This document shows positions 44,158 to 46,657 of a DNA stretch of 64,000 nt, one piece after another. This DNA comes from Amycolatopsis sp. NBC_01480 (lineage in GTDB: Bacteria; Actinomycetota; Actinomycetes; Mycobacteriales; Pseudonocardiaceae). Location of the stretch: positions 2,728,001 through 2,792,000 of the forward strand of contig NZ_CP109442.1 of assembly GCF_036227205.1 (NCBI RefSeq), given 5' to 3'. The position numbers and the translations under genes were made by a program. Position 1 is the first letter of the stretch; every line of letters begins with the position of its first letter. Below the pieces are notes generated by a model, which saw only the letters and a program-made list of their open reading frames with translations, had not been told where the DNA came from and searched no databases.

Positions 44158-44203
44158 AGCCACCCAGTCGCTCGTGATGGAAATCCTCAGCGACAATGGA
44201 GGC

Positions 44204-45340
44204 GTGACCGCGACCCTGAGCAAGCCCGCCCTGAAGATCGGCCCCTACGAGGTCGATCCGCCGGTCGTGCTCGCGCCCATGGCCGGGATCACCAACGTCG
44301 CCTTCCGGCAGCTGTGCGCGGAGTACGGCGCCGGCATCTACGTGTGCGAGATGATCACCGCGCGCGCGGTCGTCGAGCGGCACCCCGGGACCATGCACAT
44401 GATGACCTTCGGCGAGCATGAAAAGCCCAGGTCCATGCAGCTTTACGGGGTCGACCCGAAGACGATGCGCGAGGCCGTGAAGATCATCGTCGGCGAGGGG
44501 CTCGCCGACCACATCGACTCCAACTTCGGCTGCCCCGTCGCCAAGGTGACGCGAAAGGGCGGGGGCGCGGCGCTGCCGTTCAAGCGGCGGCTGTTCGCCG
44601 ACATCGTGCGCGAGTCCGCCTCCGCCGCGGCGGAGGCCGGGGTGCCGTTCACGGTGAAGTTCCGCGTCGGGATCGACGACGACCACCAGACGTTCCTCGA
44701 CGCCGGGCGCATCGCCGAGGCCGAGGGCGCAGCCGCCGTCAGCCTGCACGCCCGCACGGCCGCCCAGCGCTACTCCGGCCAGGCGGACTGGACGAAGGTC
44801 GCGGCGCTCAAGGAGGCCGTGACCAGCATCCCCGTCCTCGGCAACGGTGACATCTTCTCCGCCGCCGACGCGCTGCGGATGGTCGCCGAGACCGGTTGCG
44901 ACGGCGTGGTCGTCGGCCGCGGCTGCCTCGGCCGGCCGTGGCTGTTCGGCGAACTTGAGGCCGCCTTCGCGGGTCGCGAGGTGCCGCAGGGGCCGAACCT
45001 GGGCGAGGTGGCGCGGGTGCTTCGGCGGCACGCGGAACTGCTCGTCGCCCACGACGGCCCGGTCAAGGCGATGCGCGACCTGCGCAAGCACATGGCCTGG
45101 TACTTCATGGGCTTCCCGGTCGGCTCCGAGCTGCGCCGCGGCTTCGCGATGGTGTCCAGCATGGACGAGCTGGACGACCTCCTCACCCGCCTCGACCACG
45201 ACGCCCCGTTCCCGGCCAACGCCGACGGCCCCCGCGGCCGCCAGGGCTCCCCCGGCAAGGTCACCCTCCCGCACGGCTGGCTCGACGACCCGGACGACGA
45301 CTGCGTCCCCGAGGCCGAGGACATGCACTCCGGCGGCTGA
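44204..45340 (+). CDS. dusB: tRNA-dihydrouridine synthase (DusB type)
   Basis: A 378-residue FMN-dependent enzyme that reduces uridine to dihydrouridine in the tRNA D-loop. Landmarks: VVLAPMAGITNVAFR, MQLYGVDP, HIDSNFGCPVAKVTRKGGG in pieces, SLHARTAAQRYSG, VLGNGDIF and GVVVGRGCLGRPWLF. The conserved Cys is in FGCP. GTG 44204 gives the usual N-terminus; starts further upstream are open. Confidence 0.93.
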   Translation: MTATLSKPALKIGPYEVDPPVVLAPMAGITNVAFRQLCAEYGAGIYVCEMITARAVVERHPGTMHMMTFGEHEKPRSMQLYGVDPKTMREAVKIIVGEGLADHIDSNFGCPVAKVTRKGGGAALPFKRRLFADIVRESASAAAEAGVPFTVKFRVGIDDDHQTFLDAGRIAEAEGAAAVSLHARTAAQRYSGQADWTKVAALKEAVTSIPVLGNGDIFSAADALRMVAETGCDGVVVGRGCLGRPWLFGELEAAFAGREVPQGPNLGEVARVLRRHAELLVAHDGPVKAMRDLRKHMAWYFMGFPVGSELRRGFAMVSSMDELDDLLTRLDHDAPFPANADGPRGRQGSPGKVTLPHGWLDDPDDDCVPEAEDMHSGG

Positions 45341-45350
45341 TCCACCGGAG

Positions 45351-45962
45351 TTGTCCACAGACCGTTCAAGTCCGGTACGCCCGATTGTGGGCAGCCGATG
45401 AAGACCCTCTGAGACAACGGCGCTCGCGGGATGGGCCGAGGTAGGCCGCCTCGGCGTGCCGGTCTTTCCGACGTTCTCGGGTGACGGCCCGGACTTCGCC
45501 CCACGGACGTCGGCACCAGCCTCAGCGACGGCGGTTGAGCTGCGGAAACTGCTCGAGTTGCTCGGGCTGGCGCTGCCTGGCGCGACGCGGAGGGCCTCGT
45601 CGCCGATGGTGCCGTCGGCAGGCGATTTTCCCTCTGCTGAAGGGTTTTCTCCCTGATCGCGATGGCGATCGAGAGCTGCCGCGCGGTGCGTCCGCCTCCT
45701 ACGGTCACCTTCGAGCACCTGTGGACACCGAAGCCGCTATCCACACCGATCGCTCGTCAGAGACGGCGCTGAACACCCCCCTCCGTCGTGTGTCCACAGG
45801 TGCACCCGCCGATGTGGGTGACGGCGGTTCAGCGCCCGGCAAGTTATCCACCTACCCACCCGTCCCCACCTGTGGATACTCGAACGAGTGGTGATTCTCC
45901 ACAACTTGTCCCCAGGTTGTCCACAGGGTCTTGTGGATAACTCGGATGGAGGATGTGGACGA
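45351..45962. other. Cluster of DnaA-box-like sites
   Basis: Eleven matches to TTGTCCACA or TTATCCACA with at most one mismatch, on both strands: 45351, 45720, 45737, 45790, 45844, 45871, 45895, 45906, 45917, 45932 and 45954. Those at 45351, 45917 and 45932 are exact. Ten fall within 45720-45962. No dnaA, dnaN or other replication gene is present. The region has no convincing gene. It may titrate DnaA or be a secondary binding locus. Confidence 0.8.
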
Positions 45963-46036
45963 CTGGGATGGGCCGCCGGAGCAGCGTCAGAGGCCCAGCA
46001 CAGCCGGGCGACTCGCGACGGATGCACCACGACGCG

Positions 46037-46180
46037 GTTCACTCGCAGCCAGCGGGCACAAGGTGATCCGTTCACTCGCAACAGCGAGCACGAAATGCCC
46101 CCGTTCACCCGTGCAGCGGGCGCGAGAGACCCCGTCCGCCCCTGCAGCGGACGCGAAACGGCCCCGTTCACCCGTTGCAG
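46037..46180. repeat. Degenerate 31-33-bp tandem repeat array
   Basis: Five direct units start at 46037, 46070, 46103, 46134 and 46166 (last partial). The consensus begins GTTCACYCG, has GCAGCGGGC in the middle and ends in CCCC. Units differ from each other throughout, so this is not a CRISPR array. It lies 75 bp from the DnaA-box cluster and 50 bp from the hsp20 stop. Confidence 0.75.
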
Positions 46181-46231
46181 ACTGACCATAATGGACAGAC
46201 CACAGTGGACGGACGGGGCCGGGAAACCGGG

Positions 46232-46657
46232 TCAGGCGTCGAGTTGCTTCGGGTCGCCGTTCACGGTGATCTTGCGGGGCTGGGCCTTCTCGGCGAACGG
46301 GATGCGCAGGGTCAGCACGCCGTCGACGTACTCCGCGGCGACGTTGGTGGTGTCGAGGGTGTCGCCGAGGAAGAGCTGGCGCGAGAACTTGCCGCGCGAG
46401 CGCTCGGAGACCTGCACCTTGTCGTCCTCGGCGTAGCCGGCTTCGCGAGCCGCCTTGACGGTCAGGACGTTGCGCTCGACGCTCACGTCGATCGAGTCCC
46501 TGGCCACACCCGGGACGTCGAACTGCAGCACGTACTCGTCGCCCGAGCGGTAGGCGTCCATCGGCATCGCGGCGGAACGGGCGGAAGTGCCCTGGCCGCG
46601 GAAGGCCTGCTGGGTCAGCCGGTCGAACTGGGCGAACGGGTCGGTCCGGATCAACAT
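46232..46657 (-). CDS. Hsp20/alpha-crystallin small heat-shock protein
   Basis: A 141-residue chaperone. The alpha-crystallin domain (about 35-130) has YVLQFDVPGVARDSIDV in part, ERNVLTVKAAREAGY, and the C-terminal GVLTLRIPFAE. The N-terminal MLIRTDPFAQFDRLTQQAF is typical of actinobacterial Hsp18. GGAGGAACC precedes ATG 46657. Upstream are GTTGCCAAC and CAACTTAGTTG dyads that could serve a heat-shock regulator, though neither matches the HAIR or CIRCE consensus. Confidence 0.92.
   Translation of the reverse strand: MLIRTDPFAQFDRLTQQAFRGQGTSARSAAMPMDAYRSGDEYVLQFDVPGVARDSIDVSVERNVLTVKAAREAGYAEDDKVQVSERSRGKFSRQLFLGDTLDTTNVAAEYVDGVLTLRIPFAEKAQPRKITVNGDPKQLDA

Follow-up and report, generated by a model that had tools for sequence, protein, structure and literature searches.

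A DnaA-box cluster of the actinobacterium Streptomyces coelicolor was reportedly described in 2006 by Smulczyk-Krawczyszyn et al. under the name D78. The cluster of this species is cited as repressing untimely initiations (PMC10950094). In B. subtilis, several oriC-proximal DnaA-box clusters (DBCs; Okumura et al. 2012) are found besides the origin, as summarized in a review (PMC5295017). In E. coli, the datA locus has a conserved relative distance to oriC, with conserved sites in variable spacers (PMC4585315), and one of its DnaA boxes is described as overlapping the terminator of the adjacent tRNA operon, where DnaA binding dampens transcription through the terminator (PMC10950094). A ChIP-seq study of E. 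coli reports that DnaA in vivo favours pairs of tandem boxes with 2 or 3 bp between them (PMC11317965). As stated in a 2025 paper, DnaA titration in E. coli had, up to that point, lacked experimental evidence (PMC12371093).

The locus analysed here is an array of DnaA boxes in the gap between dusB and hsp20 of an Amycolatopsis genome, located in the window, which is the whole stretch of 64,000 nucleotides that was analysed. Like D78, it is a non-origin cluster, here of predicted DnaA boxes, in an actinobacterium. As with the B. subtilis DBCs, several box groups lie near oriC besides the origin, whereas here one cluster is denser than oriC. The features shared with datA are a non-coding box cluster near oriC, a conserved relative distance, and conserved sites in variable spacers; the array, however, lies beside protein genes and datA, which speeds DnaA-ATP hydrolysis in an IHF-dependent way, beside a tRNA operon. 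With the roadblock terminator described at E. coli asnC (PMC10950094), the array shares DnaA boxes at a gene end, although hsp20 of the window has a separate hairpin. Tandem boxes 2-3 bp apart are common to the array and the E. coli double DnaA box, but the array contains a triple, and two facing doubles are found in 9 of the 16 genomes with an hsp20 orthologue.

The array represents a single compact titration candidate in an actinomycete, present in some related species and absent from others, with 2 to 11 boxes. Because it is compact, patchy and variable in box number, an effect on initiation would be testable by natural variation combined with one deletion. Additionally, a terminator-like hairpin overlapping double DnaA boxes brings to mind the tRNA-operon terminator at datA, and through such an overlap a connection of transcription with DnaA sequestration could be tested in a second phylum. 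No published report of the locus was found in searches on Streptomyces DnaA-box clusters, Amycolatopsis DnaA boxes, and hsp20 together with DnaA boxes, whose coverage mostly excluded subscription journals.

The DnaA-Box Array between dusB and hsp20

A recount of sites with at most one mismatch to TTRTCCACA gave 11 between 45351 and 45962 (Table 1), agreeing site by site with the original prediction, and ten of them are packed into 45720-45962 (243 bp), as had also been claimed. In the motif scan of the window, three sites are exact (45351 and 45917 on the plus strand, 45932 on the minus strand) and the other eight have one mismatch. Boxes 7-9 start at 45895, 45906 and 45917, in 11-bp steps with 2-bp spacers, and form two overlapping double DnaA boxes. 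Boxes 9 and 10 form the inner dyad, TTGTCCACA-N6-TGTGGATAA.

Table 1. Features of the dusB-hsp20 gap and its flanks (positions within the window, except for the window itself)
Feature	Position	Strand	Sequence or annotation	Remarks
Window	G000:C1:2728001-2792000			Genome of 10.11 Mb in two contigs
dusB, tRNA-dihydrouridine synthase	44174..45340	+	Pfam PF01207, 302 bits	Convergent neighbour
DnaA box 1	45351..45359	+	TTGTCCACA, exact	Directly past dusB stop; kept in nearest relative
DnaA box 2	45720..45728	-	GTGTCCACA, 1 mismatch	Second mismatch in nearest relative
DnaA box 3	45737..45745	+	CTATCCACA	Kept in nearest relative
DnaA box 4	45790..45798	+	GTGTCCACA	Lost in nearest relative (alignment)
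DnaA box 5	45844..45852	+	TTATCCACC	TTGTCCACC in nearest relative
DnaA box 6	45871..45879	-	GTATCCACA	Kept in nearest relative
Tandem triple box (boxes 7-9)	45895..45925	+	TTCTCCACA-AC-TTGTCCCCA-GG-TTGTCCACA	Kept in nearest relative
DnaA box 10	45932..45940	-	TTATCCACA, exact	Faces the 45917 box across 6 bp
DnaA box 11	45954..45962	-	TCGTCCACA	Lies 22 bp from box 10; nearest relative has CCATCCACA (2 mismatches)
Hairpin, separate from array	46159..46221	-	GGCCCCGTCC...	Directly past hsp20 stop; from fold, coordinates counted from bracket string
hsp20, small heat-shock protein	46232..46657	-	Pfam PF00011, 83 bits	Convergent neighbour

The description of the gap as gene-free was borne out. Three ORFs in it that were examined do not show the codon-position GC pattern seen in dusB and hsp20 and gave no Pfam match above the cut-off, with one sub-threshold match (E 0.022), and Pfam assigns the flanking genes to the Dus and Hsp20 families. 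The hairpin next to hsp20 is probably the hsp20 terminator in the lineage of the window. Between the array and this hairpin, at 46020-46185, imperfect repeats around GTTCACYCG were noticed by eye; they are mostly missing in the alignment with the nearest relative and were not called by Tandem Repeats Finder.

Box Density and Distribution in the Genome

The whole window contains 19 sites with at most one mismatch against 7.5 expected, a number reached in none of 100 shuffles (largest 17). For the 891-bp gap, 1000 dinucleotide shuffles gave a mean of 0.2 sites and a maximum of 2, compared with the 11 observed. Clusters of one-mismatch sites were scanned over 2.4 Mb, comprising 2.0 Mb around oriC and 0.4 Mb sampled elsewhere. 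Around oriC, the array ranks first with 10 sites within 300 bp, followed by oriC with 8 and a group upstream of dnaB with 6, all others having at most 5. In the 20 further 20-kb stretches sampled elsewhere, no 300-bp group exceeds two one-mismatch sites. The array thus stands far above the background outside oriC, as an oriC-proximal DnaA-box cluster would. Its distance from dnaA, from which it had been described as lying far, is 489 kb, or 4.8% of the genome, which places it near oriC.

DnaA boxes in general are concentrated in this part of the chromosome. The 2 Mb around oriC contain 448 one-mismatch sites, compared with 213 matches to the reversed pattern, and the far sample contains 59 and 56, respectively; exact boxes number 61 in the former and 2 in the latter. 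Genome-wide, there are 135 exact boxes against 33 for the reversed pattern, the positions considered being the first 100 places, up to 5.1 Mb, among the matches listed. E. coli is likewise reported to concentrate DnaA boxes around oriC (PMC12371093). The dnaA-dnaN gap (DnaN assigned by Pfam) holds 12 one-mismatch site calls, including one palindrome that enters the count once per strand. None of the 12 is exact, compared with three of the 11 sites in the array; an exact box is found some 0.13 kb ahead of the dnaA reading frame. For Kutzneria albida, a relative in the Pseudonocardiaceae, an oriC without classic boxes has been reported (PMC4210621), and the dnaA-dnaN gap here is similar in having no exact box.

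Spacing of Double Boxes and Other Box Groups

A double box was defined as two tandem boxes with starts separated by 11 or 12 bp. The 2 Mb around oriC gave 16 such doubles against 2 in the reversed control, compared with 0 against 1 in the 0.4 Mb elsewhere. When the focal locus and oriC were left aside, 6 of the 33 same-strand pairs had the 11/12-bp spacing against 1.3 expected (p 0.0015). For the strict double with a 2-bp spacer, allowing at most one mismatch, the whole genome yields two matches, namely the array and the site upstream of dnaB. Across the 80 genomes of the genus, it has 138 matches against 5 in the control, spread over 64 genomes, and 9 of the 20 examined loci with a strict double lie upstream of dnaB (DnaB by Pfam), several with identical box positions. 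The dnaB-upstream site therefore serves as a positive control for the double-box motif.

The group upstream of dnaB in the genome of the window (G000:C1:3202597-3202809) comprises six boxes, including two 11-bp doubles, and is likely to be bound by DnaA. A further arrangement consists of inverted box pairs with 12 bp between the boxes (starts 21 bp apart); 5 one-mismatch pairs of this kind occur in the 2 Mb around oriC and none in the reversed control. One such pair lies at G000:C1:2719734-2719763, 8 kb before the window, and others, among the matches listed, are at 2462018, 3630150, 1439762, 1558377 and 4549442; one inverted pair of this kind is located about 200 bp upstream of dnaX (Pfam).

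Conservation in the Nearest Relative

DusB relatives place the window in Amycolatopsis, the nearest being A. saalfeldensis (L005; probably the same as genome G047), with 97% DusB identity and a sister position on the DusB tree. In the alignment of the two gaps, 93 of 99 box columns are identical, compared with 500 of 658 other aligned columns (94% vs 76%; Fisher p 7e-6), and a slid box mask equals or beats the real placement in only 2 of 890 shifts. Deletions relative to this genome amount to 134 bases outside the boxes and none inside. The last 271 bp alone give 84/90 identical columns for boxes and 136/180 for spacers (p 1.7e-4). Eight of the 11 sites still satisfy the one-mismatch rule in this relative. 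The boxes of this oriC-proximal cluster are thus more conserved than its spacers in the one genome pair on which this selection test was performed, a pair whose oriC, at 97% identity, is too similar to serve as a control.

The Facing-Box Dyad across Amycolatopsis

Some hsp20 relative is present in 75 of the 80 Amycolatopsis genomes, and 16 carry an orthologue with at least 76% identity, the next match having 68%. All 16 have two facing boxes 3' of hsp20. The inner boxes are perfect in 30 of 32 cases, and the loop between them measures 6 bp in 14 genomes, 5 in G022 and 0 in G009. A double box is present in 15 of these genomes and two facing doubles in nine; the number of one-mismatch boxes per locus ranges from 2 to 11, with only 2 to 5 at the dyad in 14 of the 16.

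The dyad occurs in two forms. In 11 genomes, the hsp20 stop is followed after 10-25 nt by a long palindrome with the sequence TTGTCCCCAGGTTRTCCACA-loop-TGTGGACAACCTGGGGACAA or some variant, whose nearly perfect 20-bp arms (0-3 differences) form a strong hairpin. In the hsp20 transcript, the arms pair fully, G-U pairs counted, in 9 of the 11, three of these nine having identical arms; the bias towards G-U (about 6 of 8) is not significant, the roughly eight independent changes (our count) being few and related. The palindrome symmetry is kept in L270, because both arms carry the same 10-bp insertion. The other five genomes (window, G047, G010, G056 and G060) retain just the inner dyad and the left outer box; this dyad is 0.17-1 kb away from hsp20, and hsp20 has a strong hairpin of its own near the stop. 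The outer right arm is lost in these five, and their inner boxes are perfect in 10 of 10 cases. In G010, G056 and G060, an ORF between the dyad and hsp20 appears by eye to encode a secreted-looking protein.

Among 390 genomes of 46 genera, the long dyad with at most two mismatches was found once each in 13 Amycolatopsis genomes and in four genomes of one other genus. A dispersed repeat or mobile element was considered and is unlikely, given this single occurrence per Amycolatopsis genome. With at most three mismatches, the dyad is found in 16 of the 80 genomes of the genus, a pattern that misses the variant dyads of G009, G022 and G056; it lies away from hsp20 and dusB in G003, G004 and G032, and G021 has a second copy. 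The element is dispensable or replaceable, because 64 of the 80 genomes do not have this hsp20 orthologue and only 3 of these 64 have a dyad (at most three mismatches), located elsewhere.

On the DusB tree, the dyad-bearing rows need 4 changes, compared with a shuffled mean of 13.2, the dyad label of L030 being inferred from G046, whose dyad and hsp20 are located about 17 kb away from dusB. One early gain followed by three losses would fit this tree, which is that of a single gene. In the nine of the 16 genomes with dyad and dnaA on one contig, the two are 373-489 kb apart, or 3.9-5.0% of the genome (some sizes rounded), with the dyad always on the 5' side of dnaA (9/9); this constant distance may be plain synteny.

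Linkage of the array to dusB in all relatives was also considered and was rejected, only 6 of 80 dusB loci (L005-L009 and L011) having at least 3 boxes per 300 bp within 1 kb, in a count in which some loci (e.g. L080, L081, L083 and L084) cover less than 0.7 kb downstream. These six are the same loci that have hsp20 in the stretch examined. The dusB-locus counts and the genome counts are not independent, because some loci recur among the genomes. In three of the 16 genomes with the hsp20 orthologue, dusB lies beyond the few kilobases examined. A three-box group occurs about 4.6 kb downstream of dusB in A. pithecellobii (L045), and five scattered boxes lie within 1 kb of dusB in L065.

Boxes at other gene ends were also observed. 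In four genomes of another genus of the family (L284-L287), an N-acetylmuramoyl-L-alanine amidase-like gene (Pfam for L284) is followed, about 20 nt after its stop, by a similar dyad and a further box, and in L285 and L287 this gene and a GNAT-like gene are convergent; this is a parallel case of a gene-end dyad. In three Amycolatopsis genomes without the hsp20 orthologue (L288, L291 and L296; G002, G007 and G013), a double box with an inverted partner is located past a CDP-alcohol phosphatidyltransferase-like gene (Pfam for L291), and these gene-end boxes are possibly a substitute site.

Proposed Titration of the Initiator and Alternative Readings

What the sequence itself shows is the array with its density, spacing, conservation and position. 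It is somewhat probable that the gap is an oriC-proximal DnaA-binding locus that titrates the initiator, of the D78, DBC or datA kind. This is the leading reading because the array is dense, its boxes are more conserved than its spacers, the boxes have the preferred spacing, and the locus is oriC-proximal and flanked by two gene ends; neither promoter is at hand, because dusB and hsp20 both end in the gap. Between the two functions suggested in the original prediction, a datA-like titration locus is thus the one that density, box conservation, spacing and place point to, and an unexpected origin is disfavoured by skew and AT content.

DnaA is expected to bind at the array, and an effect on initiation is a further expectation built on this binding. 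In the proposed mechanism, DnaA would nucleate on the tandem boxes, whether double or triple, as well as on the facing box, and would then spread across the remaining weaker boxes, so that it is kept from oriC. Newly made copies of the locus would absorb DnaA and delay re-initiation, because the locus replicates soon after initiation. Several points count against titration: the hsp20 orthologue, and with it the element, is missing from most Amycolatopsis genomes, the constant distance from dnaA may be plain synteny, the selection test covers one genome pair, the 2 to 5 boxes of 14 of the 16 genomes are few for a DnaA sink, and the palindromic hairpin 10-25 nt past the hsp20 stop in 11 of the 16 suggests a transcriptional role there. 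For B. subtilis, the review cited above describes a strong effect only when all six clusters are deleted and doubts a large role (PMC5295017). The array is a real, conserved element; as a non-origin box cluster it would belong to a known kind, and the palindromic form in relatives is unusual.

A role as a DnaA-dependent roadblock terminator, in which the facing boxes halt RNA polymerase from both sides between the convergent dusB and hsp20, is unlikely but deserves consideration. The gap is convergent, two facing double boxes occur in nine of the 16 genomes, the dyad follows the hsp20 stop closely in 11, and DnaA is described as blocking transcription at E. coli asnC, with a DnaA box overlapping the glyV-X-Y terminator at datA (PMC10950094). 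Nevertheless, the window and four relatives keep their boxes even though hsp20 has its own hairpin and the inner dyad is 0.17-1 kb away, 11 boxes are more than a terminator needs, and dusB is not within the few kilobases examined in 3 of the 16 genomes.

The titration and terminator readings are compatible, because at E. coli datA a box overlaps the tRNA-operon terminator and DnaA dampens transcription through it. A tentative scenario, to which we assign a low probability, is that in ancestral Amycolatopsis the facing double boxes at the shared 3' end served both as the hsp20 hairpin terminator and as a DnaA dock, and that the lineage of the window later separated these jobs. If this is true, read-through would depend on DnaA occupancy and would in turn displace DnaA, so that heat-shock transcription would be coupled to the pool of free initiator; the lineage of the window would have given hsp20 its own terminator, and its dock would have grown to 11 boxes.

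It is improbable that the element is just an intrinsic terminator hairpin of hsp20 with arms that only resemble DnaA boxes. Near-perfect 20-bp arms in 11 of the 16 genomes, the symmetric insertion in L270 and the full pairing of the transcript arms in 9 of 11 are what such a terminator would display, and a stable hairpin right after the stop is found in 11 of the 15 genomes other than that of the window. In the window itself, however, about 270 bp separate the end of the array from the hsp20 stop, which has a hairpin of its own. Furthermore, the boxes outside the hairpin are also conserved in the nearest-relative alignment, the arms constitute a double DnaA box at the preferred spacing, and the G-U bias falls short of significance. 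The reading of a plain hairpin terminator as the only function was rejected, since perfect inner boxes persist in five genomes that have lost the outer right arm.

A DnaA-regulated promoter region is very improbable: other box groups of the genome do lie upstream of dnaB and dnaX, but dusB and hsp20 both end here and have their promoters at the far ends.

That the array is another replication origin, or what remains of one, is the least credible reading, because the skew minimum is at dnaA with only a minor dip near the array and the gap has no AT-rich stretch, even though the array has more boxes per length than oriC. The AT-richest 50 bp of the gap reach 50% AT, as do 25% of random segments, compared with 70% at oriC, so that an AT-rich unwinding region beside the boxes was not found in the gap; neither dnaA nor dnaN adjoins the array. 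The dnaA-dnaN gap, by comparison, combines an AT-rich stretch, its 12 site calls and the global skew minimum. The position of the GC skew, proposed in the original prediction as a check, was determined in 5-kb bins: the minimum falls in the bin of the dnaA-dnaN gap (ending at 3.268 Mb) with a prominence of 1.55, and the main switch is thus not at the array. The local minimum that ranks second within the 2 Mb, with a prominence of 0.32, lies some 9 kb from the array, its bin ending at 2.783 Mb; three other dips of 0.17 indicate that such dips occur without arrays, and the one near G000:C1 2783000 may result from local gene orientation. In 20-kb bins, the lowest cumulative GC skew is at 3.18-3.20 Mb, with a nearly equal point at 3.24-3.26 Mb.
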